Below the pieces are notes generated by a model. The model was not told the origin of the DNA, did not search any database, and saw nothing but the letters and a program-made list of their open reading frames with translations. From contig NZ_JOAK01000031.1 in NCBI RefSeq assembly GCF_000720455.1, positions 1 to 64,000 of the forward strand: DNA of 64,000 nt, written 5' to 3'. Shown one piece after another: positions 29,630 through 49,056 of the stretch; position 1 is the stretch's first letter, and the number at the start of each line of letters is the position of its first letter. Both the position numbers and the translations under genes were made by a program. The stretch is from Streptomyces virginiae (GTDB lineage: Bacteria; Actinomycetota; Actinomycetes; Streptomycetales; Streptomycetaceae).

Positions 29630-29717
29630 CTACAGCACCGGGAGGTTCTTGCGGAGTTCGAAGGCCGTGACCTCCGAGCGGTATTCCTCCCACTCCTGCT
29701 TCTTGTTGCGCAGGAAG
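29630..29717 (-). pseudogene. Displaced 3' end of glnA2 (left attachment site)
   Basis: Encodes only the last 28 residues of a type-I glutamine synthetase (LRNKKQEWEEYRSEVTAFEL plus the last eight residues, then TAG). It matches 47696-47782 over 87 bases with two mismatches, including 51 identical bases (29667-29717). The sequence stops matching abruptly at 29717. It is the chromosomal tail cut from glnA2 by integration; it has no start and is not expressed as a gene. Confidence 0.92.
29631..29717. repeat. Attachment-site direct repeat, left (att core)
   Basis: Left copy of the att repeat; mismatches to the right copy at 29636 and 29666 only. The crossover most likely falls in the 51-base identical block 29667-29717. 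Three perfect 11-base units GACGGCCCGGG (29822-29854) just inside the element may be integrase arm sites. The rest of 29718-29930 shows no gene. Confidence 0.88.
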
Positions 29718-29930
29718 TCATACGGCGCATTGGCCACCTGCGAGGTCGGCCTCCGGCTCCCCGCGGACCAGGGTCAAGCTGTCCGCTGTTGGTCGTTGGT
29801 GGTGGCCCCGGGCCGCCTCTCGACGGCCCGGGGACGGCCCGGGGACGGCCCGGGATCAACCGCCTCGTCGGCGGATTTCAGGTGACAAGACAGCCTGCCG
29901 ATCACAGCACGCCAGGGCACGCGCCCCGCA

Positions 29931-30230
29931 TCACTCGGCGTCGCTGCGCTCCAGAACCAAGCCAACGGACCCGTCTTCCAGACCGTTGCTGTCCTCAAGG
30001 TGGAGATGGCTTCCATCGGGAACGCCGTCTTTGGCCAACACGAGCAGATGGCCGGCCAGCGTCCTGAGCCCAGCGGCGTTCGCCTCGATGACGATCTCGC
30101 TGCCTAGGTTCCGTACCTCGATCCGCGCATCCTCCTCCCACGTGAAGACCTGCGCTACACCGTCGGTCAGGGCCCTGACGTGAGTGCTCTCGATTGGCAC
30201 GCTAGGTTCGAAGGTCATGCCAGACATCAT
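29931..30230 (-). CDS. Imm32-like immunity protein candidate
   Basis: A 99-residue acidic protein. The segment NAAGLRTLAGHLLVLAKDGV followed by GSHLHLEDSNGL and a Gly-Ser-Val ending resembles the Imm32 family of polymorphic-toxin immunity proteins, judged from memory. No toxin gene is recognisable beside it; the upstream neighbour on the same strand is the restriction endonuclease. Starts at 30230, 30227 and 30218 are all possible. The family call is tentative. Confidence 0.5.
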   Translation of the reverse strand: MMSGMTFEPSVPIESTHVRALTDGVAQVFTWEEDARIEVRNLGSEIVIEANAAGLRTLAGHLLVLAKDGVPDGSHLHLEDSNGLEDGSVGLVLERSDAE

Positions 30231-30352
30231 GCTGCTTCCCAGACACGGCTCCAGAAGCCCCGTACGCTCACGGCATAGCAGCAGTTGAGCGGCTTTGCGA
30301 TGGCCTGGATGGGCTCCCCAGTCCACGGACAGGCCGCGCGCCGCATCGGCAC

Positions 30353-31654
30353 CTACTCCAGCAGGATCTCCTCTGGCCGGCGGTTGGTGACCGAGGTTTC
30401 ACGGACACGCAGTATGTGCACGATGCAGGCTTCAAGGTCGCCACCGTGACCGTCACGGGCCATGCTCCTCAGCTCTCGCGCCAAGTCCAGCCCGTTGACC
30501 AGAACGATCGGGTACTGATCCTCAACCATCTCGGTCTGCGCCGGTACGGAGTAGGCCCCGGTCGTGACGTAGACGCCGATCCAGCCGCGCCGGAGGCGGG
30601 CCACGACACGAGCGATTTGGTCGGCAGACACGACGTGGTCGAGACGGACGCACTTCGCCTGACCAAGGACAACGAGGCTCGTGCCAGCCAGTCCACTGCC
30701 GATGTCGAGCCTTCCGACGAAGTCAGCCCCTCCATCACCAGACCGCTGGGTCAGCCACCCTTCGAGATAACTGTTCCCTGCACCCCGCAGAACGCGCGCG
30801 GCGACCGCGGAGGCAACAGCCTCAAAATCATGCTTGCGCCCGTCGAAGTATTTATAGATCAGCTCCAGATCCTTGGCTTCGGCAGTACCCGGCTTCGGCC
30901 GCTGCTCGGGCACCTTGGTCACCTTGGCCCGAGCAACCCGCCGGCGGAGTCGCGGAAGCTCCGAGCTACCATTCTTGACCCACTCCCGCCATGCTCGTGG
31001 AGCCAGTTCGAGCGCCTTGGCGTCGCTCAGATCTTTGTCCCGGCGGGAGTGGATCCACTCCCAAGAGACCTTGTCGTCCTCGTCGGTGAGGTCGAGCAGG
31101 GCGATGTCGTACACGTAGTTGGTGAACGTGGTGTGGTCACTGCCACCCCACTGCACCAGGCGTTCGGCACGCTCGATGATGCCCAGCCCGCAGAACTCGA
31201 CGTGCCCCTTGACCTTCCCGCTGCGCGACACTGCCCGGAACAGCAGCAGGGGGACAGCGCCAGCTCGTTCCTCAGGGGTGTGCCCCTGGTGTCCTGCGAA
31301 AGCATCGAGCAGGGCGGCGTTCCCGATGGTCCTACCCGGCTCGACTGTGGTGGTGGCCTTTTGATCGCCGAAGTAGCGGACGTGCCCGTTGTCCATGTCA
31401 AACACGTCGTGCCAGGGCGTCTGCTCGGTACCGGCCTTCCAGGGGCTTGACCGCACAAGGATCACAGGTCGCCTCTCTCCATCAGGAGCACGAACCTTCG
31501 CCATGCCGTTGATGCCGGCCTCCAGCAGAGCCCGTGGCAGGTTGGGTGAGTGGGTCACGTGGTGGAAGTTGGGGTATCCCTCCAGCTCCGCTGGCTTCGG
31601 GTCCTTCCCCGTGGCGTACCGAAAGACCTGACCAACACGCAACTGACCACCCAC
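30353..31654 (-). CDS. Methylation-dependent restriction endonuclease, AspBHI/Mrr type
   Basis: A 433-residue nuclease. The N-terminal half (SPNLPRALLEAGINGMAKVR, then WHDVFDMDNGHVRYFGDQK) resembles the AspBHI-type recognition domain that reads modified cytosine. The C-terminal half is a Mrr-like catalytic domain: GDGGADFVGRLDIG (metal-binding Asp) and VVLGQAKC (the QxK motif), about residues 308-338. Such enzymes cut DNA carrying 5-methyl- or hydroxymethyl-cytosine and act as type IV defence. The GTG start has AGGGGG upstream. It is divergent from the DUF262 gene across 279 bases without other genes. Confidence 0.75.
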   Translation of the reverse strand: MGGQLRVGQVFRYATGKDPKPAELEGYPNFHHVTHSPNLPRALLEAGINGMAKVRAPDGERRPVILVRSSPWKAGTEQTPWHDVFDMDNGHVRYFGDQKATTTVEPGRTIGNAALLDAFAGHQGHTPEERAGAVPLLLFRAVSRSGKVKGHVEFCGLGIIERAERLVQWGGSDHTTFTNYVYDIALLDLTDEDDKVSWEWIHSRRDKDLSDAKALELAPRAWREWVKNGSSELPRLRRRVARAKVTKVPEQRPKPGTAEAKDLELIYKYFDGRKHDFEAVASAVAARVLRGAGNSYLEGWLTQRSGDGGADFVGRLDIGSGLAGTSLVVLGQAKCVRLDHVVSADQIARVVARLRRGWIGVYVTTGAYSVPAQTEMVEDQYPIVLVNGLDLARELRSMARDGHGGDLEACIVHILRVRETSVTNRRPEEILLE

Positions 31655-31933
31655 GTGTCCCCCTTGGCAGTGATATGACGATCGTCGACACGGTAGTGGC
31701 CCTCACTGACAAGAGCGCACTGAGGCCGCGCCTGTCGCTACGGACGGTGATACGTGCGGATAGATGCGGGGGCTGCTGTGCCTCTCGGTCATCTCCGAGT
31801 TCCCTCGCACGGCACACAGACGCAGCCAGGCTGGGTTCAGCAACTACCTGCAAGCAGCTCCGTGGATGACTACCATTCACCCCACCAAGCAGTCGCGCAG
31901 GTTGCGAACGCACCTTCAGGGCGGGGAGAGTAA

Positions 31934-33436
31934 ATGAAAATGGAGCCGCGCAGCATGGCGCTCGATAAGGTATTTAAGCGCCGCGGCCGATACGACATCC
32001 CTGACTGGCAGCGGGATGAGGTGTGGTCGCCTCAGCAAAAGAGACTGCTTATCGACTCCATCCTGAACGGCTGGAAGCTCCCGAAGTTCTACTTCGCCAA
32101 GACGTCTAGCGATCCCGATGAGTTCGATGTCGTGGATGGGCAGCAGCGTCTTGCTACGATCTGGGAGTTCTTCGAGGACAAATTGCAACTCTCGGAGGAT
32201 TCCGCTAAGCGCTTCGGAGGTTCCACCTACTCAGGCCTCCCCGACACCATCACCGACGACTTCGATGATTTCGAGATCCAGTACGACGAGATCACCGAAG
32301 CTTCCGATAATGACATCCAGGAATTCTTCCAGCGACTCCAGGCTGGAAAGAGCCTTACGGCCGCCGAGCGACTCAACTCGGTAAACAGCAATCTGACGCG
32401 TTTCGCGCGCAAGTTGGCCACCCATGAATTCTTCTCCAAAAAGGTGGCGAGCAACAACACGCGGAAAGCCTACTTCGACATGTCACTGAAGGCCCTCGCT
32501 CTTGAGCTTGAGGGATTCGACGTAAGCCTCCGCTACGACGAACTTAAGGCCCTCTCTGATTCGCAGAGCAGCTTCGGGGAGACCTCCGAAGTAGCCAAGA
32601 GGCTTCTCAACACACTCGACTACCTGAACCGCGCCTTCCCCGAAAAGAGTTCCTCGCTTCGCAACAGAAGCACAATTCAGTCGTTCATCACCTTGGCAGC
32701 CGTAATCGTGGCCCGGGGGAATTCTACGGGAACCGAGCAGAAGCTCCACGCGTTTTGCAATGACTTCATTACGGAGCTGGCTAAGCAGAACGAGCTGGGA
32801 ACGAAGGCGACAGATACCTCGTACCTTAAATACCAGCGCACACTTTCCGCCAACGTCAAGTCTGGCGCAAAGGAACGGCATGAAATCCTGTTGCGAAAGC
32901 TGCTGATCTCCGATCCGTCATGGATGAACATCCTGTCCTTGCAGGAGACATCGGCCACGACCCTGCGTGAAGAGATCGATAACCTGGGGAAGCGGATTAG
33001 CGACCTCATCTCACTCAAGAACGATCAGTACTCCGCCAAAAATGGGAGCGACTTCTTCAAGCCCACAAATAGGACCTTTGGCGCGATGACTTCAATTCGC
33101 CAACCAATCGAGAACTTCGAGGCATATTCGAAGCTCATCGGAGATCTATACTTCACACTGCGAGAGGGTCCTGGGAGTAGGCTCCCCAACGATGTCGCGC
33201 CTGCATCATTCATCGATGTGAATCTCCTGCGCACTGGCCTCCAGCACGATGTCGACCACGGTAAGGCGGGAGCGGTTGCCAGTAAGCGGCGGAAAATCGG
33301 CGAAGCCTTTGCCCGCTACGCCTCCGGGGAAACGGCTCCTGGCGCGCTAGCTCCCGAACGATTCCCTCTAGTCCAGGCTGCGCTCCTTCGGGCTATTGCC
33401 GACGACCTTGAAGCGCTTGACGTAGAAGTGCTCTAG
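31934..33436 (+). CDS. DUF262 (ParB/Srx-like fold) defence-type protein
   Basis: A 500-residue protein with an N-terminal DUF262 domain: YDIPDWQRDEVWSPQQKRLL, then FDVVDGQQRLATIWEFF, whose DGQQR motif is the nucleotide-binding/nuclease signature of GmrS- and BrxU-related proteins. The rest (about 200-500) is helical and lacks an obvious DUF1524 HNH nuclease, so a GmrSD-type second activity is not seen. Base composition is clearly lower in G+C (some 60-base lines about half) than the neighbours, with less Streptomyces-like codon use, a sign of recent transfer. GGGGAG lies 5 bases before the ATG. The gap 33437-33904 after it contains no convincing gene. Confidence 0.82.
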   Translation: MKMEPRSMALDKVFKRRGRYDIPDWQRDEVWSPQQKRLLIDSILNGWKLPKFYFAKTSSDPDEFDVVDGQQRLATIWEFFEDKLQLSEDSAKRFGGSTYSGLPDTITDDFDDFEIQYDEITEASDNDIQEFFQRLQAGKSLTAAERLNSVNSNLTRFARKLATHEFFSKKVASNNTRKAYFDMSLKALALELEGFDVSLRYDELKALSDSQSSFGETSEVAKRLLNTLDYLNRAFPEKSSSLRNRSTIQSFITLAAVIVARGNSTGTEQKLHAFCNDFITELAKQNELGTKATDTSYLKYQRTLSANVKSGAKERHEILLRKLLISDPSWMNILSLQETSATTLREEIDNLGKRISDLISLKNDQYSAKNGSDFFKPTNRTFGAMTSIRQPIENFEAYSKLIGDLYFTLREGPGSRLPNDVAPASFIDVNLLRTGLQHDVDHGKAGAVASKRRKIGEAFARYASGETAPGALAPERFPLVQAALLRAIADDLEALDVEVL

Positions 33437-33904
33437 GCGCGAGTTCCCGCCGGCCAGCGGGTAGCGATTCGGTGGAACCTTAGCTTTCGATCCCACGGTC
33501 CCGCCCAGAATTGACCCCTGCTCCCTATCCCGTCTGCCGCCGACCCGAACGACAGGACGCCAGGACCCGTATCTGCTCGCTCTGCCTGGGTCGACGGCAG
33601 GCGGGATGGGGGCCCTACCTTCACCACGATGCTGCCCCCAGTCGCCCATGGCTCCTCCATTCCGGAGCCTGAGCCCGCCACCGGAGGCATCGTCCTGCCC
33701 TGCACCTCGCAGACCCATCCTGGTCGCGTCGTGTTTCTTCCTGCCCATCAACCCAACCGTTGTGGGCGGTCAACCGTGATCTCTGGAAGCCTCTAAGAAG
33801 GGGCCCACAATCGGCGTTCTTCCCTCTGAACAGTGACGTGCGAAGCTGGAGCGCGCGAATGCGACCAGGCGCCACCGCGCATGCGGCGGAAGAAGGAGGA
33901 AAGC

Positions 33905-34342
33905 GTGACGAACCCCAGCCCTCGCGGGACGTACTTGACGATCTCTGAGGCTCTGCGGGCAAGAATCGCCGAGGGAGCATACCCCGATGGCCTTCCGTCC
34001 GAAGCGGAGATCGGGCGGGAGTTCGGCGTGGCCCGGACGACCGTCCGTCGCGCGCTTCGCACTCTGGAGGAAGCCGGCGACGTGACCACCGTCGCCGGGG
34101 TCGGCCGCCAGGTCGGCGGTGGGACACAGGTGGCGCCGTACAAGCGGATCATGACGGACCTGCTGGACCGCATCCGGACGGGCGAACTGCCCGCCGGCGC
34201 TCGTCTCCCAAGCGAGGCAGAACTCTCCGAGTCCTACGGCGTCGCGCGGGGCACTGTTCGTCGCGCCGTGCACGAGCTGGAAGCCGCAGGACACATTCAA
34301 GCTAGGCACGGAGTCGGGCGGTTCGTGAGCCCGACGTCCTGA
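33905..34342 (+). CDS. GntR-type regulator with two tandem winged helices
   Basis: A 145-residue protein made of two GntR winged-helix domains in series: residues about 10-70 (PSEAEIGREFGVARTTVRRA) and about 78-145 (LPSEAELSESYGVARGTVRR). No effector-binding domain (UTRA/FCD) follows, so it may bind paired operators constitutively. In Streptomyces plasmids and AICEs a GntR protein (KorSA, TraR) represses transfer and replication genes. The GTG at 33905 is fixed by a near-perfect AAGGAGG 5 bases upstream. Confidence 0.85.
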   Translation: MTNPSPRGTYLTISEALRARIAEGAYPDGLPSEAEIGREFGVARTTVRRALRTLEEAGDVTTVAGVGRQVGGGTQVAPYKRIMTDLLDRIRTGELPAGARLPSEAELSESYGVARGTVRRAVHELEAAGHIQARHGVGRFVSPTS

Positions 34343-34368
34343 ACCTCGACAGCTGGGAAGGCACTGAC

Positions 34369-34932
34369 ATGCACTTGGCCAAGTGGGCTCACGACCTCGC
34401 AGAGTCCTTGCTCGCCGAGAGTCTGCCAAAGCGGTGGGCTCATTCGCAGCGTGTCTATTCGCAAGCCCTGATGCTGGCCCCGGCTCTGGGCGAGGATGCG
34501 GAGCTGCTAGCTGCGGCGGCCATTACGCATGACGTCGGGTACGCGCAGGCTGCGGTCGACACGGGGCAACACATGATCGACGGGGCGCGCTACCTACGCG
34601 ACGTGGTGGGTGCCGATCCCCGGCTGTGCAGTGTCGTGGCCTTCCATACGTCTTCCCCTTGGGAAGCCTCCGAACTGGCACTGAGCGAGGCACTGGCGGA
34701 GTTCGGCCCCGCAGAGCCTGACCTGGTGGACGCGATCACGTACTGCGATCTGACCAGCAGCCCAGTGGGCGCTCTCGTGGATCCAGCGGACCGGTTGGCT
34801 GAGGTTCTGGACCGGTACGGCCCGGATCACGTCGTGTTCCGGGCCGTGTCCGCGGCGCGGCCGGAGCTGCTGGCCCGTGTTGCTCGGGTGCGTCAGCGCA
34901 GCTTCGCGACAGAGCGGTCCAAGCTCAGCTGA
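34369..34932 (+). CDS. HD-domain phosphohydrolase
   Basis: A 187-residue HD-superfamily metal-dependent phosphohydrolase. RWAHSQRV (about residue 22) and AAITHDVGYA (about 50) give the first His and the HD pair; further histidines occur in AFHTSSPWE. The substrate is unknown; nucleotides are likely. It follows the GntR gene by 26 bases and its 3' end overlaps the convergent Nudix gene by 8 bases. HD-Nudix-XRE sets are common in Streptomyces AICEs. Confidence 0.85.
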   Translation: MHLAKWAHDLAESLLAESLPKRWAHSQRVYSQALMLAPALGEDAELLAAAAITHDVGYAQAAVDTGQHMIDGARYLRDVVGADPRLCSVVAFHTSSPWEASELALSEALAEFGPAEPDLVDAITYCDLTSSPVGALVDPADRLAEVLDRYGPDHVVFRAVSAARPELLARVARVRQRSFATERSKLS

Positions 34933-35398
34933 TTCGGGGAATCGGTGAGTCGCGGAAGCCTTCCTCCATCCGCCGGCGGGTAGTGGGCGATACGTCGAGG
35001 GACTCGATTTCGGCCCTCGGAATCCACCGAACCTCCAGGGATTCCGAACTCACCTTGATCTCACCGCTGACCGGTCGGGCCCGGAAGCAGAGCGAGAACT
35101 CTTGCCGCACCTCGCCGTCCGCGAACGCGATGACATGCCCGGGATCGGTGAAGATGCCCACCAGGCCGACGACCTCGACCAGGATCCCGGTTTCCTCCAG
35201 GACCTCGCGGACCACCGTTCCTGCGATGTTCTCCCCGACCTCCTGAACGCCCCCCGGCATGCCCCAGCGGCCGTTGTCCGATCGCCGCTCCAGCAGCACA
35301 TCTCCCGCATCGTTCACGACGAACGCCGTGACCGCGGGCACGATGCTGTTGGCTTTCGGCGCGTCGGGATCGTTGAAGTAGTCAGTGCGGCGACTCAT
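34925..35398 (-). CDS. Nudix hydrolase, Pif-like
   Basis: A 157-residue Nudix hydrolase with a complete Nudix box (GGVQEVGENIAGTVV followed by REVLEETGI), needed for Mg2+-dependent cleavage of a nucleoside diphosphate linked to X. In pSAM2 the Nudix protein Pif prevents redundant transfer into cells that already carry the element; position in an AICE control block suggests the same role here. The ATG at 35398 has AAAGG upstream and lies 2 bases after the XRE gene's stop codon. Confidence 0.85.
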   Translation of the reverse strand: MSRRTDYFNDPDAPKANSIVPAVTAFVVNDAGDVLLERRSDNGRWGMPGGVQEVGENIAGTVVREVLEETGILVEVVGLVGIFTDPGHVIAFADGEVRQEFSLCFRARPVSGEIKVSSESLEVRWIPRAEIESLDVSPTTRRRMEEGFRDSPIPRIS

Positions 35399-35400
35399 GC

Positions 35401-36141
35401 TCACCTTTCGACGGAGACAGCTTCGGACCAGACCTTTTCGAAGCTCTGCTGATACGTGGAAACCAGCTCAGCACCGGCGACCTTGCGCAGGTGGAGAACC
35501 GGTGTCAGGGGTGCGCTCACCCCGTACACCTGCGTGTTCACCAGCCACTCGTCATCCGACCGGTAGAGCGAGTTGTGCAGGGTCGACCGGTGGAGACGGA
35601 ACTCGATCCCCGGAACCGAATAGAGGGGGCGATAGAGCTTCATTACCTCGCGGACCTTGTAGGCCACCCCCTCGCCGATTTCCTCCTCCTCGCCTCGGCG
35701 CCGGATCTCCGGGCTCTCCGGGTCGCCGAGCAGGATGCGGGACCGAACGCCACCAGCCGCTTTCAACCTGAGCAACTGGGCCCAGCGAGGATTCTCGGCG
35801 AGGAAGACGCCAGCGTGGACCAGCACACCAATCTCGCGTTCCGCCCGCCCGAACAGCTGGAGCCATAGGTCCGCCGGCACGTAAGAGCGATGCGGATAGA
35901 CCTTCAGAACCTCGGCGTCGGCAGCGTCCTTACGCTGCCCGTCCGGCAGGCCGTCCGGCCAGAGATATCCCTCGTCTTCCCGCAGGAAGGCCGAGATGGC
36001 AAGGCGGTGTCGCCTGTACGGTGCTCGCCCCTTGGTGATCCAGCGCTCCACTGTCTTGGGATCGACCCCAAGGTGCTCCGCTAGGGAATCCGCCGTGACG
36101 CCTTGCGTCAGCATCGCGGACCTTAACCGCTCGTTCGCCAT
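35401..36141 (-). CDS. XRE-family regulator (DUF5919-like)
   Basis: A 246-residue DNA-binding protein: an N-terminal HTH (VTADSLAEHLGVDPKTVERW, about residues 15-34) and a C-terminal domain (about 85-246) with RSYVPADLWLQLFGRAEREI and VHAGVFLAENPRWAQLLRLK, which fits DUF5919, a phospholipase-D-like ligand-sensing fold. It is transcribed with the Pif-like gene. Four GGGACG/CGTCCC motifs crowd its promoter (36151-36232), suggesting autoregulation. Confidence 0.85.
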   Translation of the reverse strand: MANERLRSAMLTQGVTADSLAEHLGVDPKTVERWITKGRAPYRRHRLAISAFLREDEGYLWPDGLPDGQRKDAADAEVLKVYPHRSYVPADLWLQLFGRAEREIGVLVHAGVFLAENPRWAQLLRLKAAGGVRSRILLGDPESPEIRRRGEEEEIGEGVAYKVREVMKLYRPLYSVPGIEFRLHRSTLHNSLYRSDDEWLVNTQVYGVSAPLTPVLHLRKVAGAELVSTYQQSFEKVWSEAVSVER

Positions 36142-38451: not shown

Positions 38452-38807
38452 TGAGCACGCTGCCCGTTTACCGGTGGCGCCTTGCACCTGAGGGTCTGGC
38501 CACCCGTCGTCAGCTCCGTGCCGCTGGCCTCCGGCCCGGCGGTCAGGACGTCGTCGCCCAGTTGGAGCGGCCCCGCCAGCGGCGGGGCCCGCTGGTCGCC
38601 TACCTGTACCGGATCGATCTCGCGAAGCCGGTCCGGCCGATGACCCCGAACCGGTGGGCGGCCCTCGCCAAGGCGGATGCCGCCCGCCGCCGGTGCCCGG
38701 TCTGCCGCGATCACCTCCCGTACGTGATTCCGACCTCGCTCGGCATGTGCGTGGCCTGCCACGACTTCCCTGAACAGCGCGCCGCCCGAACCCTCTCTGC
38801 CGCCTGA
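38451..38807 (+). CDS. Zinc-ribbon AICE protein (RRQRL-type)
   Basis: A 118-residue protein with an N-terminal ATRRQLRAAGLRPGGQD segment and a C-terminal zinc-ribbon pattern CPVCRDHLPY...MCVACHDF. Proteins of this type recur in Streptomyces AICEs between spread and tra genes; no function is established. Its ATG overlaps the DUF2637 stop by one base. Confidence 0.75.
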   Translation: MSTLPVYRWRLAPEGLATRRQLRAAGLRPGGQDVVAQLERPRQRRGPLVAYLYRIDLAKPVRPMTPNRWAALAKADAARRRCPVCRDHLPYVIPTSLGMCVACHDFPEQRAARTLSAA

Positions 38808-40017: not shown

Positions 40018-42087
40018 ATGCCCCGCACCATCACGACCGACGACACCCGGCAGCAGTACGACGTCCACGGCGAGGGCGGCGGGATCGGCGAGTACCTGCT
40101 CCACCGTGCCAAGCCCCATCTGCCGCCGTGGCTCGCCGGAGCCGGTGCGGGCCTGGCCTCCCTGCCCGCCCACTACTTCTGGTCCGGCGAACCCGGCGTC
40201 ACCGCCGGCCTCACCCTCGCCTCCGTCGCGCTGACCGGCCTGACCTGGTGGGCTGGCAAGTCGACCACCCAGCAGCGCCGTCTGCACTCCGCCGTCACCG
40301 TCGCCGCCGCATCCACCTGGTTCACCGCCGCGGCGATCGCCGGGCCCGGGGCGGGGCCGCTGGGGGAGCTGTACTTCATCGGCGCCCCCGCGCTCGCCCT
40401 CTCGTGGAACATCCGCCAGATCCTCCGCAAGAACGTCGAAGGCCTCGCCGCCGGCGCGGATGGCGGGTTCCTGGAGAAGGTCGGCCTGGCCAAGACACAG
40501 GTCATCCGCACGGAGGTCGGCCCGAACAAAGCTGCCTTCGACCTCCAGCTCCCCCGCGGCGAACTGACCAGTACCGATGTGTCGAAGAATCTGGAGCGCA
40601 TCGCCGGCGCGCTGGACGTGCCGAAGACGGCGGTTCGGATGACGGAGGACCCGGAATCCGCGTCCCGGGTCACCCTCACGGTCGTGCCGCTGGACCTGCT
40701 GAAGAACACCGTCCCCTGCCCCGGACCCTCCCACCCGGGAGGCTCCATCGCCGACCCGGTCCACGTCGGGATCTACGAGGACGGCACTCCGGCCGTCATC
40801 TACTTCCCCGGCGACCCGAAGGCCGGCCGGAACGCCGCGCACTTCCTGGTCATGGGGATGACCGGCTCCGGCAAGTCCGAGGGCGGCCTGACCGCCCTCG
40901 CCGAAGTCGTCACCCGCCGCGACGTGATCGTGTGGGCGTCTGACCCCGCCAAGGCGGAACAGACGCTCGGCCCGCTCCTGCCGGCGATCGACTGGGCCGC
41001 CCTTGACATGCCGTCCACCAAAGCCATGATCGAAGCTCTCAAGGCCGCGATCCCGGTGCGGACGGCGTGGCTGGCCAAGTACGGCTACAAGCAGTGGGAA
41101 CCCGCGTGCGCCGAGACCCAGGCGGACGGCTCGCCGGGCATGCCGTACCTGATCGGCTGGTTCGAAGAGGCCGCGAAGGCGATCCGCGAGATCGATGACG
41201 ACGTGTTCACCGGGATCTCCCAGGAAGCCCGCTCGGCTGGCGTCTCCCTGGTCATCTCCATGCAGCGTGCTTCCGGCAACCAGGTCTCCACCGACACCCG
41301 CGCCTCCCTCGGCTCCTCCTGGGTCCACGGCGTCCGCAGCGAGGGAGATGCCCGCTTCGCCCTGGACGACGAGGTCCTCGACGCGGGGGCGGCCCCGCAC
41401 GTGTGGAAGGACAAGAAGCCCGGCTACTCCTACCTCGTCGCCAACGGCGTCAACGACGCACTGTGGGCCACGCCGCTGCGCGACTACCTGACCGGCGTCG
41501 ACTACCTGAACTGGGCCGTCATCAACTTCGCCGACATCCGGGCAAGCATCGACCCCACCACCGCCGGAGTCGCCGCCCGGACCGTGGACCGGGCGTTCAC
41601 CGCCCGCACCCGGTACCCGATTCCCGGCACCACCGACCAGCCGGAGACCACCATGCTCAACGGCTACGGCCCGGACGAGGACGAGGAGAACGGCTACTAC
41701 CCCGACGAGGACGACTACGACATGCGCCCGCCGTACGGGGCCGACCAGGACGACGACTACGAGGAAGGGGAGTTCATCGACGCAGAGCAGGAACTCCCCC
41801 AAGTCGAGCAGGTCGTCCAGCTCGCGGCCCGGCCGCCCGCCGATGAACCTCGCCCGAAGATCAGCACCGCGGACGCGCGTGCCGCGATGGAGGAAGTCCT
41901 CGAAGAGTTCGAGGAGGAGGGCCGGGACGTGGTCGGCCCGGCGGACTTCATGGCCTACTGCGACCGCTACGGACGGGGCCGTTCCTGGGTCTCCGGACAG
42001 GTCGCGCAGTTCGTCCTGGCGGGCCGTCTGGCCGAGACCAGCGAGGTCGGCCGCTACCGGATCGTGCCGTACGAGGTAGCGGCCTGA
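40018..42087 (+). CDS. traB: TraB FtsK/SpoIIIE-type DNA translocase
   Basis: A 689-residue conjugative DNA pump. Two to four membrane helices lie in residues about 40-140; the RecA-like motor has Walker A GMTGSGKSEGGL (about residue 280) and Walker B-like MPYLIGWFEEAAKAI; the C-terminus (about 620-689) is a winged helix that should read the 8-bp-type repeats of the clt locus. In Streptomyces a single TraB protein moves double-stranded DNA between hyphae, unlike classic single-strand conjugation. GGGAGG precedes the ATG. The repeat region that follows (42088-42284) is the expected place for clt. Confidence 0.93.
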   Translation: MPRTITTDDTRQQYDVHGEGGGIGEYLLHRAKPHLPPWLAGAGAGLASLPAHYFWSGEPGVTAGLTLASVALTGLTWWAGKSTTQQRRLHSAVTVAAASTWFTAAAIAGPGAGPLGELYFIGAPALALSWNIRQILRKNVEGLAAGADGGFLEKVGLAKTQVIRTEVGPNKAAFDLQLPRGELTSTDVSKNLERIAGALDVPKTAVRMTEDPESASRVTLTVVPLDLLKNTVPCPGPSHPGGSIADPVHVGIYEDGTPAVIYFPGDPKAGRNAAHFLVMGMTGSGKSEGGLTALAEVVTRRDVIVWASDPAKAEQTLGPLLPAIDWAALDMPSTKAMIEALKAAIPVRTAWLAKYGYKQWEPACAETQADGSPGMPYLIGWFEEAAKAIREIDDDVFTGISQEARSAGVSLVISMQRASGNQVSTDTRASLGSSWVHGVRSEGDARFALDDEVLDAGAAPHVWKDKKPGYSYLVANGVNDALWATPLRDYLTGVDYLNWAVINFADIRASIDPTTAGVAARTVDRAFTARTRYPIPGTTDQPETTMLNGYGPDEDEENGYYPDEDDYDMRPPYGADQDDDYEEGEFIDAEQELPQVEQVVQLAARPPADEPRPKISTADARAAMEEVLEEFEEEGRDVVGPADFMAYCDRYGRGRSWVSGQVAQFVLAGRLAETSEVGRYRIVPYEVAA

Positions 42088-42092
42088 CGCGT

Positions 42093-42248
42093 CAGACGCG
42101 CCAGACGCCCCTGACAGGCGAGCAGCCCAAAACACAGGTCATACGTGCGCGCGAGGGGTGTCAGACGGGTGTCTGACGCGTCAGACACCCCCGCCAGACA
42201 CCCGCCCTGACACCCCAGACACCCCCTCCCGTGGGGCCCGCACCAGAC
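42093..42248. repeat. CAGAC repeat cluster, candidate clt/TRS
   Basis: Seven CAGAC and one inverted GTCTG within about 156 bases directly after traB, centred on a perfect 24-base palindrome (42167-42190, core GTCTGACGCGTCAGAC). Location and repetition fit a cis-acting locus of transfer bound by TraB. Confidence 0.6.
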
Positions 42249-42830: not shown

Positions 42831-43559
42831 ATGACCCATCCCATCCCGATCCGGCGAGTGCCCGGCGACCGCCCCTGGCTGTTGGACCTGTTCTCCTGCG
42901 CCGGCGGCGCCGCCATGGGCTACCACCGAGCCGGGTTTGACGTCGTCGGAGTCGACATCGCCCCTCGTCCCAACTACCCGTTCACCTTCCACTGGGCCGA
43001 CGCGCTGGAGTTCCTGGCGGACCTGATCGCCACGGGGGAGATCGAGCGGTTCGCGTTCGTCCACTCCTCGCCGCCGTGCCAGGCCAAGTGCAATCTGTCC
43101 GTCGGCACCAATCGGTCCCGTAACTGGGGCGGCATCCACGTCGACCTGGTGGCCCCCACGCGCCTGCTGCTCCAGGCGTCCGGACTGCCGTACGTGATCG
43201 AGCAACCCAACGGCAAGGCGGAGATCCGCAAGGACGTATGGCTGTGCGGGGAGATGTTCTCCCTCGACGTCCTACGCCACCGCAACTTCGAACTCGGCGG
43301 CTGGACCGCCCCACAGCCGCCACACCCCAAGCACCGGGGCCGCGTACGGGGGTGGCGCCACGGCGAGTACCACGACGGCCCGTACGTCGCCCCCTACGGC
43401 AACGGCGGCGGCAAGCCCACCGTCCCCGAGCTTCAGGCCGCCATGGGCATCACGTGGACCGACGTCCGCGAGGAGCTGACCGAGGCCATCCCGCCGGCGT
43501 TCTCCCAGTGGCTCGGCACCGCGTTCCTCACCCGCACCCGCACGGGGGTGGCCGCGTGA
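42831..43559 (+). CDS. DNA cytosine C5-methyltransferase-like protein
   Basis: A 242-residue protein with C5-methyltransferase motifs: SAM-binding LLDLFSCAGGAAMGYHRAGF (motif I, about residue 17), VGVDI, and the catalytic SSPPCQ (motif IV, about residue 80), then YVIEQPNGK (motif VI-like). It is short for the family and has a small recognition region, like methylases of actinophages and AICEs. It ends in a GTGA overlap with the primase gene. Whether it protects the element from the methylation-dependent nuclease also on board, or creates its target, is an open question. Confidence 0.82.
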   Translation: MTHPIPIRRVPGDRPWLLDLFSCAGGAAMGYHRAGFDVVGVDIAPRPNYPFTFHWADALEFLADLIATGEIERFAFVHSSPPCQAKCNLSVGTNRSRNWGGIHVDLVAPTRLLLQASGLPYVIEQPNGKAEIRKDVWLCGEMFSLDVLRHRNFELGGWTAPQPPHPKHRGRVRGWRHGEYHDGPYVAPYGNGGGKPTVPELQAAMGITWTDVREELTEAIPPAFSQWLGTAFLTRTRTGVAA

Positions 43560-44485
43560 GTGACCTGTCGTCCATCGACCTGCCGGGCCTGAACCTGCTT
43601 GCCCACGCAGTCCTTGCCACCGAGCGCGGCTGGCACGTCTTCCCCCTCCGCCCCCGCGACAAGCGGCCCGCCGGCCACCCCGAACGCGCCTGCCCCCGCA
43701 CCGGCCGGTGCACGGACGGACACCGAACACCGGAGCAAAGGGCCACCACCGACCCCGACCTCTTGGCCGCGGCATGGACCCACGCCCCGTACAACATCGG
43801 TATCGCCACGGGCCCGTCCGGGCTGCTCGTGATCGATCTCGACACGCTCAAAGCCAAGGACAAGAAGGGAACGCCTGACGGCGTCGCCCTCTTCGAAGCG
43901 CTCTGCGAGCGAGCCGGGCACGCCGTCCCCCTCACCCACCGAGTGCGGACCGCGCGCGGCGGGGTGCATCTGTACTTCACTCAGCCCACCGGTGCCCGGC
44001 TCGGGAACACGGCCGGACATCTCGGCAAGCACATCGACACCCGGGGGTGGGGCGGCTACGTCGTCGCCCCAGGCAGCAGCACCCCGGACGGGGCGTACGA
44101 GATCCTCGACAGCCGCCCGCCCGTACCACTGCCTGACTGGCTCCACATCGCACTAACCGCCCCGCGCGAGCCCAACCGCTCCCCGATCCCGGCTCCGGCC
44201 GTGGTCCTGGGCAGCGGGACCCGCGCCGCCGAGGCAGCGCTGGAGCGCGAGACGGCCACCGTCAGGGCGACCCAAGAGGGTGGCAGGAACGCTCAGTTGC
44301 TCACCTCAGTGCGGGCGGTGGGGCGATTCGTCGCGTGGGGCGACATCCCCCGGCACGTGGCCGAGGAGGCTTTTCAAGCGGCGGGGGAGGCGGCCGGACT
44401 GTCGGCGGCCGAGTGCCGGGCCACGATCCGTAGCGCGCTCGACTGGTCCATCCGCACGGCCCGCCCCCGGTCGGCCGCCGCGTGA
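43556..44485 (+). CDS. Bifunctional DNA primase/polymerase (prim-pol)
   Basis: A 309-residue prim-pol domain protein (AEP superfamily) predicted to prime element replication. Features: GWHVFPLRPRDKRPAGHP (about residue 27), the acidic pair in GPSGLLVIDLDTLK (about 95), then RTARGGVHLYF and IDTRGWGGYVVAPGS (about 150-170). The C-terminal helices may contact the next protein. GTG start in a 4-base overlap with the methyltransferase; its stop overlaps the DUF3631 gene likewise. Confidence 0.88.
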   Translation: MSDLSSIDLPGLNLLAHAVLATERGWHVFPLRPRDKRPAGHPERACPRTGRCTDGHRTPEQRATTDPDLLAAAWTHAPYNIGIATGPSGLLVIDLDTLKAKDKKGTPDGVALFEALCERAGHAVPLTHRVRTARGGVHLYFTQPTGARLGNTAGHLGKHIDTRGWGGYVVAPGSSTPDGAYEILDSRPPVPLPDWLHIALTAPREPNRSPIPAPAVVLGSGTRAAEAALERETATVRATQEGGRNAQLLTSVRAVGRFVAWGDIPRHVAEEAFQAAGEAAGLSAAECRATIRSALDWSIRTARPRSAAA

Positions 44486-45852
44486 CCAGCCCCGGAACCT
44501 ATCCCTTGAAAAGCCCCACCCCCACCGCTCCCCGGCCCGCAGCCGCCGAAGCGGCCCTGCCGCAGGACGCCGTGGGCGCCCAAGAGGTCGTCGCCGAAGG
44601 CGTCCCTCCTGGCTCTGACCCGCACCCGGCCGACCACACGGACCACACCCCCGCTCCCCCACGGAGGGAAACCCGCATGCCCGAGCCCATGGACGGCGCC
44701 GCCCTGCTCGACGAGATCGAGCGCTTCCACCGCCGCTTCAACATCTTCCCCATGGAGGCCGCCTACGTCGCCGTGACCCTGTGGGACGCACACGCCCACC
44801 TCCTGGACTGCTTCGACGCGACACCCCGCCTGGCATTCCTCTCCCCGGAGCCCGCCAGCGGCAAGAGCCGGGCCCTGGAGATCGTCGAGACACTCGCCCC
44901 GTACCCGATGGTCGCGGTGAACGCCTCCGCCTCCGCCCTCTTCCGCGCCGTGTCCGGGATGGATGCTCGCCCCACGATCCTCTTCGACGAGATCGACACC
45001 GTCTTCGGCCCCAAGGCCGGAGAGAACGAACAGCTCCGCGGCTTCCTCAACGCCGGACACCGCCGCTCCGGAGTCATGTACCGGTGCGTCGGCGACGGAT
45101 CCAACCAGCAGGTACAGGAGTTCCCCTCCTTCTGCGCGGTCGCCGTCGCCGGACTCGGCTCCCTCCCGGACACGATCCTCACCCGCTCCGTCATCGTCCG
45201 CATGCGCCGCCGGGCCCCCAACGAGCACGTCGAACCCTTCCGACAGCGCTTCCACGAGAAGGAAGGCCACGCGCTCCGCGACCGCCTCGCCGCCTGGGCC
45301 GACAGCGTCCGCCACCTCGTCGAAGGCTCCTTCCCGCAGATGCCTGAAGGCGTCACCGACAGGCCCGCCGACGTGTGGGAGCCGCTCCTCGCGATCGCCG
45401 AGGCTGCTGGCGGGACTTGGCCCGAGCGGGCCCGCGCAGCGTGCTCCGAGATGGTCAACGAACTCGCCGCCGACGACAAGGGCTCCACCGGGATCCGGCT
45501 CCTCACCGACCTTCGCGACCAGGTCTTCGGCGACGCCGACAAGCTCCCCACTGTCATCATCCTCGACCGGCTCAACGCCCTCGAAGACGCACCCTGGGCG
45601 GACATGGGCGGCAAGCCGCTCGACTCCCGCTCCCTCGCCCGGATCCTGCGCGAGTACACCACCGGCGGCAACAAGCCCATCGCCGCCCGCCCCGTCCGCA
45701 CCGGCGCCGGCGTCGTCCGCGGCTACTACGCCGAAGACCTCCACGACGCGTGGACCCGGTACTGCCCTCCCCGGACGTCCGCTACATCCGCTACATCCGC
45801 TACATCCGCTAAGTCGTCGCTCGACACCGCCCTGACCAGCGGCAACACGTAG
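44482..45852 (+). CDS. DUF3631 P-loop ATPase, replication protein
   Basis: A 456-residue protein. After a Pro/Ala-rich leader (1-65), it has a P-loop ATPase core: Walker A SPEPASGKSR (about residue 120) and Walker B PTILFDEIDTVF (about 167), and a DUF3631 helical C-terminus. Paired with prim-pol it likely acts as the helicase/initiator of AICE replication. The tail SATSATSATSA is encoded by the first iterons of the origin, so gene and origin overlap. GTG start overlapping the prim-pol stop. Confidence 0.86.
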   Translation: MTSPGTYPLKSPTPTAPRPAAAEAALPQDAVGAQEVVAEGVPPGSDPHPADHTDHTPAPPRRETRMPEPMDGAALLDEIERFHRRFNIFPMEAAYVAVTLWDAHAHLLDCFDATPRLAFLSPEPASGKSRALEIVETLAPYPMVAVNASASALFRAVSGMDARPTILFDEIDTVFGPKAGENEQLRGFLNAGHRRSGVMYRCVGDGSNQQVQEFPSFCAVAVAGLGSLPDTILTRSVIVRMRRRAPNEHVEPFRQRFHEKEGHALRDRLAAWADSVRHLVEGSFPQMPEGVTDRPADVWEPLLAIAEAAGGTWPERARAACSEMVNELAADDKGSTGIRLLTDLRDQVFGDADKLPTVIILDRLNALEDAPWADMGGKPLDSRSLARILREYTTGGNKPIAARPVRTGAGVVRGYYAEDLHDAWTRYCPPRTSATSATSATSAKSSLDTALTSGNT

Positions 45853-46012
45853 CGGGCGCGGCGAATTCGTCCGCTACACCCACTCACCACATCCGCTACA
45901 TCCGCTACACCTCTGGGCTCGTGTAGCGGACCGATCCGCTACACGAGCACCCATCCGCTACACCCAACGGGGCTCTGACCTGCGATGTAGCGGATGTAGC
46001 GGATGTAGCGGA
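45778..46012. repeat. Iteron array, candidate replication origin
   Basis: Twelve exact copies of the 9-mer TCCGCTACA: eight on the plus strand (45778, 45787, 45796, 45870, 45892, 45901, 45935, 45954) and four inverted (45922, 45986, 45995, 46004), plus two degenerate copies. Three tandem forward units at the left end mirror three tandem inverted units at the right. A 13-base-arm inverted repeat (45918-45947) lies in the centre. Between rep and xis genes this is the expected oriV of the element. Confidence 0.85.
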
Positions 46013-46045: not shown

Positions 46046-46282
46046 ATGGCCGATCGCTCCGACCCCCGCGCCACCCTCCGGCGCGGGCTCCCCGACCGCT
46101 ATCTCACTCCCGACGACATCGCCGCCCTGCTCGGCGTCCCGCTGGAGACCGTCTACCAGTGGCGCAAGAAGCGGACCGGACCGCCCGGATTCCGCGTGGG
46201 CAAGCACCTGCGGTACGACCCCGACGCCGTGCACAGCTGGATCGCCGAGCAGATGCAGGCGGACATCAGCCAAGCCGCCTGA
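46046..46282 (+). CDS. xis: Excisionase (MerR-like HTH)
   Basis: A 78-residue DNA-binding protein: YLTPDDIAALLGVPLETVYQ, then a Trp-Arg-Lys-Lys segment and GFRVGKHLRYDPDAVHSWI, the helix-turn-helix-17/excisionase fold. It directs the integrase to excision. GGAG precedes the ATG. It sits between the iterons and int, as in most AICEs. Confidence 0.9.
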   Translation: MADRSDPRATLRRGLPDRYLTPDDIAALLGVPLETVYQWRKKRTGPPGFRVGKHLRYDPDAVHSWIAEQMQADISQAA

Positions 46283-46299
46283 CCGACCACCACAACCGC

Positions 46300-46329: not shown

Positions 46330-46353
46330 CTGCGTTCCCAGAAAGGCCCACAC

Positions 46354-47619
46354 GTGGCAGGCCACATCCAAGACCGCTGGTACAAGACCGAACCCGGCCC
46401 CTCCGGAAAGCCGGCGCGGGTAAAGACCGACCGGTACGGCACCGGCCTTCGCTACCGCGCCCGGTACATCGGGCCCGACGGCACCGAGAAGAGCAAGTCG
46501 TTTCGCGACCGTGAGAAGCGCCTCGCCGAACAGTGGCTCGCGAACATCGAGGCGGACATGTCCCGCGGCGCCTACGTCGACCCGTCCGCCGGCCGCACCA
46601 CGTTCCGCCAGTACGGGGAGAAGTGGATCGCGGCGCAGACGACCGACATGACGACGCGCACGACGGTGGAGGTACAGCTCCGGCTGCACGCGTTCCCGCA
46701 CATCGGCCCACGCCCCCTCGGCTCGTTCAAGCCGGAACACATCCGGGAGTGGCTCGGCACCCTGGAGAACGTGCTGCCGAAATCCTCATATCGGCGCGTC
46801 ATCTTCAACACCGTGTCGGCCGTGCTGACCGCGGCCGTGGAGGACGGGCACCTCCTCAAGAATCCGTGCCGCGCCACATCAGTCCGGGCGCCGCTTCCTG
46901 CTACTCCCCGCGTACGTCCGTGGACCGCCGAGCGAGTCTTCGCCGTTCGGTCCGCGCTCCCCGCGCGGTACCGGGCGATGGCTGACGTCGGTGGCGGGTG
47001 CGGGCTCCGACAGGGCGAGATCTTCGGGCTCGCCGAGGACGCGGTGAGCCGCGCGACAGGATGGCTGCACGTCGATTGCCAGGTGAAGGTGGTCAACGGG
47101 CACCTTGTGTTCTCGCCGCCCAAGCGCAGCAAGGAGCGGGATGTTCCTCTCCCCGATCGTGTCGCGCGCGTCCTCAAGCAGCACAGCAAGGAGTTCGCGC
47201 CCGTGGACGTCACCTTGCCCTGGCTACGGCCGGACGGGCCTCCCGTCACCAAGCGACTACTCTTCTCGCTCGCTGGCGGTGGAGCCGTGCGGCGGACCGA
47301 CTTCAACACGCGTGTGTGGAAGCCCGCCCTCGTCGAGGCCGGGGTGATCGAGGAGCCGAAGCCCGGACAGCGGCACGAGGCCGCGCGTGAGCACGGAATG
47401 CATGCGCTGAGGCACTTCTACGCCTCGGTGCTGCTGGACGCCGGGGAGAACATCAAGGCGCTCAGCACTTACCTGGGGCACGGCGACCCCGGCTTCACGC
47501 TCCGGACCTACACGCACCTCATGCCGAGCAGTGAGGGGCGGACCCGGAAGGCCGTGGACGGGATGTATGAGGCATCGGATTCTGCGGCTGACGGCCCACA
47601 GACGGCCCAGGGCCAGTGA
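46354..47619 (+). CDS. int: Tyrosine site-specific integrase
   Basis: A 421-residue phage-type integrase that recombines attP with the glnA2 3' end. An N-terminal arm-binding part (GHIQDRWYKTEPG to about residue 70), a SAM-like core-binding domain (about 80-180) and the catalytic domain follow. Catalytic residues: Arg in GCGLRQGE (about 219), HALRH (about 350), the LGH box and Tyr in RTYTHL (about 387). GTG start gives VAGHIQDRWY; no strong ribosome binding site. Its stop is 76 bases from the glnA2 stop, i.e. at the right att site. Confidence 0.93.
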   Translation: MAGHIQDRWYKTEPGPSGKPARVKTDRYGTGLRYRARYIGPDGTEKSKSFRDREKRLAEQWLANIEADMSRGAYVDPSAGRTTFRQYGEKWIAAQTTDMTTRTTVEVQLRLHAFPHIGPRPLGSFKPEHIREWLGTLENVLPKSSYRRVIFNTVSAVLTAAVEDGHLLKNPCRATSVRAPLPATPRVRPWTAERVFAVRSALPARYRAMADVGGGCGLRQGEIFGLAEDAVSRATGWLHVDCQVKVVNGHLVFSPPKRSKERDVPLPDRVARVLKQHSKEFAPVDVTLPWLRPDGPPVTKRLLFSLAGGGAVRRTDFNTRVWKPALVEAGVIEEPKPGQRHEAAREHGMHALRHFYASVLLDAGENIKALSTYLGHGDPGFTLRTYTHLMPSSEGRTRKAVDGMYEASDSAADGPQTAQGQ

Positions 47620-47623
47620 GACG

Positions 47624-47660
47624 ACTCAGGGCCGGCGGTCGATGACCACCGGCCCTGAGT
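47624..47660. terminator. Element-borne glnA2/int terminator
   Basis: ACTCAGGGCCGG/CCGGCCCTGAGT with an inner GGTC/GACC stem, a diverged homologue of 29578-29612. It separates convergent int and glnA2. A second inverted repeat GTCAGAAAATTCTGAC follows at 47661-47676 and may be an integrase/excisionase site. Confidence 0.8.
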
Positions 47661-47694
47661 GTCAGAAAATTCTGACAGTGGCGCTGACCTGCGA

Positions 47695-49056
47695 TTACAG
47701 GACCGGGAGGTTCTTGCGGAGTTCGAAGGCGGTGACCTCCGAGCGGTATTCCTCCCACTCCTGCTTCTTGTTGCGCAGGAAGAAGTCGAAGACGTGTTCG
47801 CCGAGGGTTTCGGCGACCAGTTCGCTGCGTTCCATCAGGGAGATGGCCTCGCCGAGGTTCTGCGGGAGGGGTTCGATGCCCATCGCGCGGCGTTCGGCGT
47901 CGGAGAGGGCCCAGACGTCGTCGTCGGCGCCCGCCGGGAGTTCGTAGCCCTCCTCGATGCCCTTGAGGCCGGCCGCCAGGAGGACGGCGTACGTGAGGTA
48001 GGGGTTGGCGCCCGAGTCGATCGAGCGGACCTCGATGCGGGAGGAGCCCATCTTGCCCGGCTTGTACATCGGGACGCGGATCAGGGCCGAGCGGTTGTTG
48101 TGGCCCCAGCAGATGTACGAGGGGGCCTCGCCGCCCGCGCCGGCGCTGCGCGAGGAGCCGCCCCAGATGCGCTTGTACGAATTGACCCACTGGTTGGTGA
48201 CCGCGGCCGTCTCGGCGGCGTGCTTGAGCAGGCCCGCGATGAAGGAACGGCCGACCTTCGAGAGCTGGTACTCGGCGCCCGACTCGTAGAAGGCGTTGCG
48301 GTCGCCCTCGAAGAGGGAGAGGTGGGTGTGCATGCCCGAACCCGGGTACTCCGAGAACGGCTTCGGCATGAAGGTGGCCTGGACGCCCTGTTCCAGGGCG
48401 ACCTGCTTCATGACCAGGCGGAAGGTCATGATGTTGTCGGCCGTGGAGAGCGCGTCGGCGTAGCGCAGGTCGATCTCCTGCTGGCCCGGGGCGCCCTCGT
48501 GGTGGCTGAACTCCACCGAGATCCCCATCGATTCGAGCATGGTGATCGCCTGGCGGCGGAAGTCCATGCCCACGTTCTGCGGGGTGTGGTCGAAGTAGCC
48601 GGAGTTGTCGGCCGGGACGGGGCGGGTCCCGTCCAGCGGCTTGTCCTTCAGCAGGAAGAACTCGATCTCCGGGTGGGTGTAGAAGGTGAAGCCCAGGTCG
48701 GAGGTCTTGGCGAGGATGCGCTTGAGGACGTAGCGCGGGTCCGCGAAGGACGGCGAGCCGTCCGGCATGAGGATGTCGCAGAACATGCGGGCGGTGCCGG
48801 GGGCCTCGGCGCGCCACGGCAGTATCTGGAACGTGCTCGGGTCCGGCTTGGCGATCATGTCGGACTCGTAGACCCGTGCGAAGCCCTCGATGGCGGAGCC
48901 GTCGAAGCCGATGCCCTCGTCGAAGGCCTGCTCCAGCTCCGCGGGGGCGACCGCGACGGACTTGAGGAAGCCCAGTACGTCGGTGAACCACAGGCGCACG
49001 AAGCGGATGTCGCGCTCCTCAAGCGTCCGGAGGACGAATTCCTGCTGCTTGTCCAT
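47695..49056 (-). CDS. glnA2: Glutamine synthetase-like enzyme GlnA2
   Basis: A 453-residue type-I glutamine synthetase-fold protein. The N-terminal beta-grasp part (EERDIRFVRLWFTDVLGFLK) and catalytic region are complete (FFLLKDKPLDG, the GSGMHTHLSLFEGDRNAF loop, RIEVRSIDSGANPYL). In S. coelicolor the gene at this place, GlnA2, is a gamma-glutamylpolyamine synthetase rather than a true glutamine synthetase (from memory). The adenylylation-region consensus of GlnA is not evident near the C-terminus. Its last 28 codons, its stop codon (TAA, not the TAG of 29630) and its terminator were supplied by the integrated element, so the present gene is a hybrid of nearly identical protein sequence. AAGG precedes the ATG. 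Confidence 0.9.
   Translation of the reverse strand: MDKQQEFVLRTLEERDIRFVRLWFTDVLGFLKSVAVAPAELEQAFDEGIGFDGSAIEGFARVYESDMIAKPDPSTFQILPWRAEAPGTARMFCDILMPDGSPSFADPRYVLKRILAKTSDLGFTFYTHPEIEFFLLKDKPLDGTRPVPADNSGYFDHTPQNVGMDFRRQAITMLESMGISVEFSHHEGAPGQQEIDLRYADALSTADNIMTFRLVMKQVALEQGVQATFMPKPFSEYPGSGMHTHLSLFEGDRNAFYESGAEYQLSKVGRSFIAGLLKHAAETAAVTNQWVNSYKRIWGGSSRSAGAGGEAPSYICWGHNNRSALIRVPMYKPGKMGSSRIEVRSIDSGANPYLTYAVLLAAGLKGIEEGYELPAGADDDVWALSDAERRAMGIEPLPQNLGEAISLMERSELVAETLGEHVFDFFLRNKKQEWEEYRSEVTAFELRKNLPVL
47696..47782. repeat. Attachment-site direct repeat, right (att core)
   Basis: Right copy of the 87-base repeat, inside the 3' coding end of glnA2. Identical to the left copy over 47732-47782 (51 bases). 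Confidence 0.9.

Follow-up and report, generated by a model that had tools for sequence, protein, structure and literature searches.

The glnA2 repeat and the segment between its copies

The DNA analysed in this study, hereafter the window, comprises 64,000 nt of Streptomyces virginiae (assembly GCF_000720455.1, contig NZ_JOAK01000031.1, positions 1-64,000, forward strand). Between 29.63 and 47.78 kb it contains a segment of about 18.07 kb that carries genes for a tyrosine integrase (Int), an excisionase (Xis), a RepAM-type replication protein, a Prim-Pol, the DNA translocase TraB and several regulators, and that is bounded on both sides by the 3' end of glnA2. We consider it highly probable (roughly 0.93) that this segment is an actinomycete integrative and conjugative element (AICE) integrated by its tyrosine integrase at the glnA2 3' end.

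The repeat search of the window aligned positions 29620-29717 with 47685-47782 (98 nt, 94% identity). Positions 29631-29717 and 47696-47782 differed by 2 mismatches over 87 nt (98% identity), and the alignment of the two copies ran without difference through the 51 nt at 29667-29717, just as the first-pass annotation of this DNA had described the repeat. A genome-wide search found these two copies only in the whole 8.3-Mb genome. The right copy is the 3' end of glnA2, which stays intact beside the element, and 75 nt separate the end of int from the glnA2 stop codon. This gap, together with the Pfam and NCBIfam matches, bears out the earlier description of a segment with int, xis, rep, tra and regulatory genes in which int lies next to the right copy.

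The window GlnA2 was 90-100% identical to its full-length counterparts in the fetched loci, and the other two glutamine-synthetase-like genes found in the genome were 35% and 39% identical to it. In S. coelicolor, GlnA2 is described as a gamma-glutamylpolyamine synthetase that shares 32% identity with GlnA and 94% with the S. tsukubaensis orthologue (PMC8998196). The name glnA2 is used here as a putative one, given by similarity class and not by alignment to SCO2241 itself. Beyond what had been reported at first pass, a terminator-like hairpin is also repeated beside the two glnA2 ends (Table 1). The attL hairpin resembles that between int and glnA2 and is present in some single-copy genomes as well, including genome G133; possible readings are an old scar and a terminator of the host that elements carry.

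ARAGORN detected no tRNA gene in the window, and no Rfam family reached the gathering score in 27-51 kb. The features by which AICEs are recognised were present, i.e., an integrase with flanking attL/attR repeats, a Tra protein of the FtsK/SpoIIIE type and a replication module. The segment departs from the pSAM2 type in that Rep is represented by DUF3631 plus Prim-Pol, not by RepSA, and attB lies in glnA2, not in a tRNA gene. No relaxase or type IV secretion family was among the matches of the 18 larger element open reading frames scanned.

Table 1. Features of the glnA2-integrated segment and its borders (TRF, Tandem Repeats Finder; HTH, helix-turn-helix).
Feature	Position	Strand	Evidence
Terminator-like hairpin, 46 nt, beside orphan glnA2 end	29574..29619		87% to 47621-47666; fold of 29560-29630 -54.2 kcal/mol, z -5.2
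attL: orphan copy, glnA2 codons 426-453 and stop only	29630..29717	-	Repeat search, genome search
Candidate left-arm integrase sites: three GACGGCCC, 11-nt period	29823..29851	+	TRF 29822-29854; motif search
Imm32-domain protein (cargo)	29931..30326	-	Pfam PF15566 1.7e-16
AspBHI-like methyl-directed restriction enzyme (cargo, defence)	30353..31654	-	PF18062 1.1e-34, PF04471 1e-7; PADLOC mREase_II 5.9e-218
GmrSD_N/DUF262 protein (cargo, possible defence)	31934..33436	+	PF03235 1.4e-19; PADLOC NsnA 6.3e-30
GntR regulator, two winged-helix copies	33899..34342	+	PF00392 3.6e-33, 2 stretches
HD-domain protein	34369..34932	+	PF01966 1e-9
Nudix protein, candidate Pif-like exclusion protein	34925..35404	-	PF00293 1.7e-18; Pif analogy from PMC3218068
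HTH regulator	35401..36141	-	Weak HTH matches
Membrane/coiled-coil protein, candidate spread (Spd) protein	37462..38451	+	Position before TraB; putative function
RRQRL zinc-binding protein	38451..38807	+	NF041638 9.3e-45
TraB DNA translocase (mycelial transfer)	40018..42087	+	NCBIfam equivalog NF041214 880.6 bits, cut-off 800
Short repeats following traB, candidate clt locus for transfer	42088..42220		TRF 42082-42108, 42182-42216
Prim-Pol primase/polymerase	43559..44485	+	PF09250 4.2e-45
RepAM-type replication protein (DUF3631)	44482..45852	+	PF12307 4.7e-62
Twelve 9-nt TCCGCTACA/TGTAGCGGA iterons, candidate replication origin	45778..46012		TRF and motif search
Xis (recombination directionality factor)	46046..46282	+	HTH_17 9.4e-13; TIGR01764 3.3e-7
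Tyrosine integrase, glnA2 clade	46354..47619	+	PF00589 5.1e-11; tree
Candidate right-arm integrase site, ACGGCCC-N4-ACGGCCC, inside int 3' end	47591..47608	+	Motif search
Terminator-like hairpin between int and glnA2	47621..47666		Fold of 47612-47694 -47.6 kcal/mol, z -6.2
attR: last 28 codons and stop of intact glnA2	47695..47782	-	Repeat search, alignment
Intact glnA2, 453 aa, target gene	47695..49056	-	Pfam PF00120/PF03951

Site association of the integrase lineage and layout of the attachment sites

The genus survey covered 392 genomes. The integrase scan took 4 candidates per genome and the glnA2-end scan 2, and the numbers given for weaker integrases and for glnA2-end copies are to be read as "at least". 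One copy or more of the glnA2 end was found in 385/392 genomes and two copies in 49/392; a deeper re-scan of 39 of these 49 revealed a third copy in G206 only. Genomes with the 20 best integrase matches (71-79% identity) and that of the window itself all carried two copies (21/21), compared to 28 of the 371 other genomes (Fisher's test, p 1.2e-21). Together with the gene content, this supports the first-pass proposal of an AICE with attB in the glnA2 3' end. G058, whose integrase is 68% identical, was added as lying between two glnA2 ends, its membership being by construction, which changed the counts to 22 genomes with such an integrase and 27 two-copy genomes without. In the 22 genomes the copies were located on one contig in 18 cases and on two contigs in 4, and in 19 the end of int was no more than about 100 nt from glnA2. 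The elements mapped at both ends (n = 20, including G179 and G090, where int is truncated or damaged) were 10.6-26.2 kb long. Inside the G345 element (locus L108), near attL, a second integrase-like match (25% identical) was observed, perhaps a stacked element.

The 22 integrases at the glutamine synthetase site formed one side of a 100/98 branch in a 63-row tree, and none of 500 label shuffles matched this split. Of the 66 highest-ranking integrase matches listed, 62 entered the tree (G090, G338, G034 and G265 being left out), along with one distant outgroup whose branch was very long. The second collection, 80 named-organism loci, came partly from the same genomes (for example L166/G213, L167/G356 and L176/G070). 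Among its 38 loci with at least 70% identity, a glnA2 end lay beside int in 31, one of them from Kitasatospora; the distance was within 94 nt in 30 and 1175 nt in L182, and in L179 and L181 glnA2 was seen as a fragment only. In the 42 named loci below 70%, glnA2 was absent from the 4-kb stretches (0/42). The single clade and this absence support the earlier suggestion that the integrase lineage targets glnA2. The best integrase in plasmid records was 62% identical among the matches listed (25 of 57 records), and all 919 phage records matched at less than 60% identity.

The motif ACGGCCC-N4-ACGGCCC occurs three times in the 64 kb (at 29823, 29834 and 47591), always at the element ends, when shuffling predicted a mean of 0.025 (200 mononucleotide shuffles in 1-kb blocks). 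Its spacing is fixed: the left arm motif lay within the element, 104-106 nt from the inner attL edge, in 19 of the 20 two-ended elements (G322 has one mismatch), and the right arm motif 107-108 nt before the last glnA2 sense codon in 19 (95 nt in G280). Moreover, 69 of the 80 named loci had the motif within -200 to +300 nt of the end of the int alignment, whatever the target gene. In pACPL the identity segment has a tandem-repeat arm on each side, like that of pSAM2, where Int binds the arms (PMC3364876). As the layout is the same here, the GACGGCCC direct repeats flanking the core are likely Int arm-type sites. In most of the 20 elements, a TTGGTCGTTG-like repeat was noticed by eye between the core and the left arm motif; a CTTC-N11-GAAG inverted repeat at the inner core edge, also seen by eye, was dropped as it was not kept in G363.

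The attL copy began at codon 426 in 16 of the 20 two-ended loci. The attL and attR of one genome were on average 97.3% identical over 84 nt, and those of different genomes 88.8%; none of 10,000 permutations reached the within-genome match, and the own partner was the best or equal best in 16/20. The 20 elements had 36 codons differing between attL and attR (33 synonymous and 3 non-synonymous), and in nine remnants 18 of 20 such codons were synonymous. This likeness of the copies down to synonymous sites is compatible with transfer that takes place mainly between closely related strains, and also with conversion of one copy by the other.

We propose that Int would recombine attP, carrying the last 28 codons, the stop codon and the terminator-like hairpin of glnA2, with the chromosomal glnA2 end, and that Xis would serve excision. 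Integration would keep glnA2 intact and leave the second end copy as an orphan at attL. The side of the core on which crossover occurs, and hence which copy is the element's, can only be inferred; most likely the glnA2 end now in use came with the element, and the host's own end was displaced and became the orphan. The GACGGCCC repeat pairs that flank the core, with their 11-nt period, would be the arm sites bound by Int, and the excised circle is predicted to replicate via Prim-Pol/RepAM at the iteron cluster and to move as double-stranded DNA through TraB.

Empty sites, remnants and competing explanations

The first-pass annotation had expected glnA2 to be followed directly by nat in relatives with an uninterrupted site. 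This expectation failed: a nat match was present in 12 of 20 relatives, always far away or on another contig, and the remaining 8 had none at 1e-40. Being unusable as an empty-site marker, nat was replaced by whole-flank synteny. The glnA2 surroundings were fetched from eight genomes, one of which (G070) was covered at the left flank only, as it has an element. The window flanks (left up to about 27.46 kb, right from about 47.6 kb) are about 20 kb apart in the window, and in the seven relatives they were separated by 365 bp (G133), 1.8 kb (G268), 2.4 kb (G226), 2.5 kb (G038), 3.1 kb (G053), 5.1 kb (G198) and 5.3 kb (G039). The uninterrupted site could be seen by means of these other flanking genes. 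The last two relatives bear remnants: the G198 site is not empty but still carries the two repeats and pieces of int in a 3.9-kb remnant, and in G039 a short int remnant adjoins glnA2 (L041). The nat neighbourhood at 27465-29573 had no match of at least 150 nt between glnA2 and the next conserved gene in the seven relatives; this stretch is perhaps a further insertion beside a hot spot.

The shared-core possibility, which the first-pass annotation had named as a refuting case, is contradicted for these seven relatives. An ancestral core region lost in relatives is barely conceivable, given flanks 0.4-5.3 kb apart in all seven and, at the scoring depth used, no more than a single glnA2 end in 343/392 genomes; we found nothing in its favour. 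The other refuting case named there, a duplicated glnA2 end without int and tra, does occur, and it is also what could be expected if the repeat had arisen by homologous recombination or tandem gene duplication with the integrase as an incidental neighbour. There were 27 genomes with two glnA2 ends in which no intact glnA2-type integrase was present, of which 21 loci were mapped and six were unmapped (G236, G298, G338, G374, G384 and G390). Nine of the mapped loci keep int fragments between the repeats, which decay explains; the other 12 had no int match. Among these 12, a right-arm signature is present in G007, and in G126 there are Nudix and HTH genes of the element type; ten are left without an individual explanation. 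Incidental duplication is nevertheless very improbable, as it leaves unaccounted for the co-occurrence with all 21 integrases of at least 71% identity, the attL start at codon 426 in 16/20 loci, the arm motifs at fixed offsets on both sides, and the separate repeat found with pmt-site sister integrases in 5/5 genomes searched. The int fragments in 9 of the 21 loci show that decay at the glnA2 site is common, and several element reading frames had no family match, so that the window could hold an AICE that once integrated at glnA2 and is now immobile, like the short remnants elsewhere. We regard this as unlikely, since the reading frames of int, xis, traB, Prim-Pol and RepAM are all open over their full length and match known families, and since neither an att copy nor an arm motif is missing.

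Several further observations weigh against an AICE integrated by Int at glnA2. The int gene was 1-5 kb from the glnA2 end in G280, G026 and G058. In the named collection, 3 of the 38 loci with at least 70% identity were beside nusG (70-71%) and 4 showed no glnA2 end in the fetched stretch, one of the four (L191) being cut by a contig end. The association with glnA2 anticipated at first pass for close integrase homologues held, whereas its identity limit is blurred, with G058 inside at 68% and the three nusG loci outside. G206 and G349 hold an inverted extra glnA2 end. The crossover cannot be placed from attL/attR mismatches, as the zero-mismatch runs are mostly invariant between genomes too. 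Finally, the circular form, transfer and binding are deduced rather than observed. In G206 and G349 (L104, L105) the inverted copy lies some 8 kb from glnA2, an arrangement that simple integration does not explain.

To count traces of past integration, a strict right-end signature was defined as the arm motif followed, after 60-85 nt, by the conserved GACCTG and the gene end. It was found in 39/392 genomes and never in the reversed control (0). A glnA2-type integrase was present in 20 of the 39, and the 19 without one are read as scars; G280 and G335, which belong to the 22, miss the pattern. Any trace, i.e., the signature or two copies, was seen in up to 60/392 genomes, an upper figure that counts unmapped, int-less and inverted-copy genomes and 11 signature-only genomes judged by the pattern alone.

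Sister integrases, known elements and gene content

The 40 less similar integrases of the tree (62-70% identity) were found at the 3' end of pmt (16), upstream of ettA (11) and at nusG (2); for 10 no site was identified. The pmt site was recognised by the C-terminal residues of pmt, and its repeat occurred twice, 13-19 kb apart, in the five genomes searched. The intact gene at the far end matched Pfam PMT above the cut-off and the NCBIfam protein O-mannosyltransferase below it. In L132, the remaining one of the 40, a pmt-group sister integrase lies beside a pmt-like core that continues in another frame, perhaps a secondary site. The ettA site is situated some tens of bases upstream of the gene, the EttA model scoring above its cut-off in the one locus tested (L291). 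G387, G048 and G260 each have two copies of its repeat at a distance of 11-20 kb; in G097 the second copy was matched weakly (E 0.002), and G132 has three copies in a 10-kb stretch. Two integrases adjoin the 3' end of nusG, and this site rests on adjacency because no second full repeat was found in the two genomes searched. ARAGORN, applied to 51 loci (about nine places twice), reported tRNA-Trp near nusG in L025/L124/L129 and, in L138, a tRNA-Ala at a distance of 1.6 kb from int. The 96-nt tRNA-Gly that it reported in L144 overlaps the int end beside the pmt repeat and is taken as probably spurious.

These data suggest a broader scenario, to which we give an even chance: one AICE integrase family would keep its arm sites and int-xis while core specificity switched several times (pmt, nusG, ettA upstream, glnA2), and glnA2 elements with host-matched 28 codons and terminator would have overwritten the gene 3' end by repeated arrival and decay in up to 60/392 genomes. 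The sisters at nusG, pmt and ettA upstream, which share the arm motif, are a natural data set for the change of core specificity in tyrosine integrases. The conserved attB, the integrase clade, both att sites and the candidate arm sites provide a basis for another site-specific Streptomyces integration vector. Furthermore, the locus illustrates how the conserved C-terminus of an enzyme (GlnA2) is duplicated by a mobile element with almost no change of protein.

The first-pass contrast with tRNA genes is correct in that the window has none, but the site is less unusual than was implied. Chromosomal conjugative elements are reported at 36 tRNA, 14 protein-coding and 1 intergenic site (51 in total); rlmN is among the protein-coding ones, and integrase exchange has been proposed to change the site (PMC9513070). 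According to PMC3218068, the vast majority of AICEs with tyrosine integrases reside in tRNA genes, the pSLS subfamily being the exception. AICEs residing in protein-coding genes have been published before, and the present element is a further case with a specific site. In the literature searched, none of the four genes glnA2, nusG, pmt and ettA was found described as a site of AICE integration, pmt and ettA not having been search terms. The word "glutamine" is absent from the main texts of PMC3218068 and PMC9513070, whose supplementary Tables S1/S5 were outside the search and may list glnA2; the mention of glnA2 in PMC11755657 is unrelated to AICEs.

With the 12 AICEs described in PMC3218068 as having RepAM and Prim-Pol, the window element shares an FtsK-type Tra, tyrosine Int, Xis, DUF3631 adjoining Prim-Pol, and Nudix; it differs by its location in the glnA2 3' end, tRNA genes being the site of the vast majority of the tyrosine-integrase AICEs surveyed there. 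It resembles pSAM2 and pACPL (PMC3364876) in having an identity segment with tandem short direct repeats on both sides, and differs from them in the repeat itself (GACGGCCC instead of GTCACCCAG) and in its RepAM/Prim-Pol in place of RepSA. Its core spans about 87 nt of a protein gene, compared to 43 nt of tRNA-Pro in pACPL. AICE03 of Streptomyces strain RLB3-6 (PMC9513070) is likewise an AICE in a protein-coding gene, rlmN, with a divergent integrase and an excisionase; its repeat is 11 nt, whereas that in the window covers 28 codons of glnA2. A site outside tRNA genes is also shared, by description only, with the pSLS integrase subfamily (PMC3218068), and the plasmid records listed (25 of 57) did not show the pSLS integrase.

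Within the element, the three defence-like cargo genes at the attL end (29931-33436) occupy a stretch of lower G+C content, 0.55-0.64 in 30-34 kb in comparison to 0.66-0.79 in 1-kb bins outside the element. The gene order GntR-HD-Nudix-HTH at 33899-36141, which looks like a regulation/exclusion module, is kept in the elements of G070, G250, G063 and G058. The candidate Spd protein had no Pfam match, and its residues 1-184 were matched at 77-78% in G026 and G179; for TraB, no Pfam family was found at 0.01. The TCCGCTACA iteron cluster spans the repAM end and the stretch before xis, occurs nowhere else in the window, and resembles the clusters in G213 and G179, which have nine copies each. The nearest integrase from a named strain was that of Streptomyces sp. 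NRRL F-2580 (93%). Judged by the regulators, the nearest mapped element was that of G070, with 86-96% identity for GntR/HD/Nudix/HTH and 79% for TraB.

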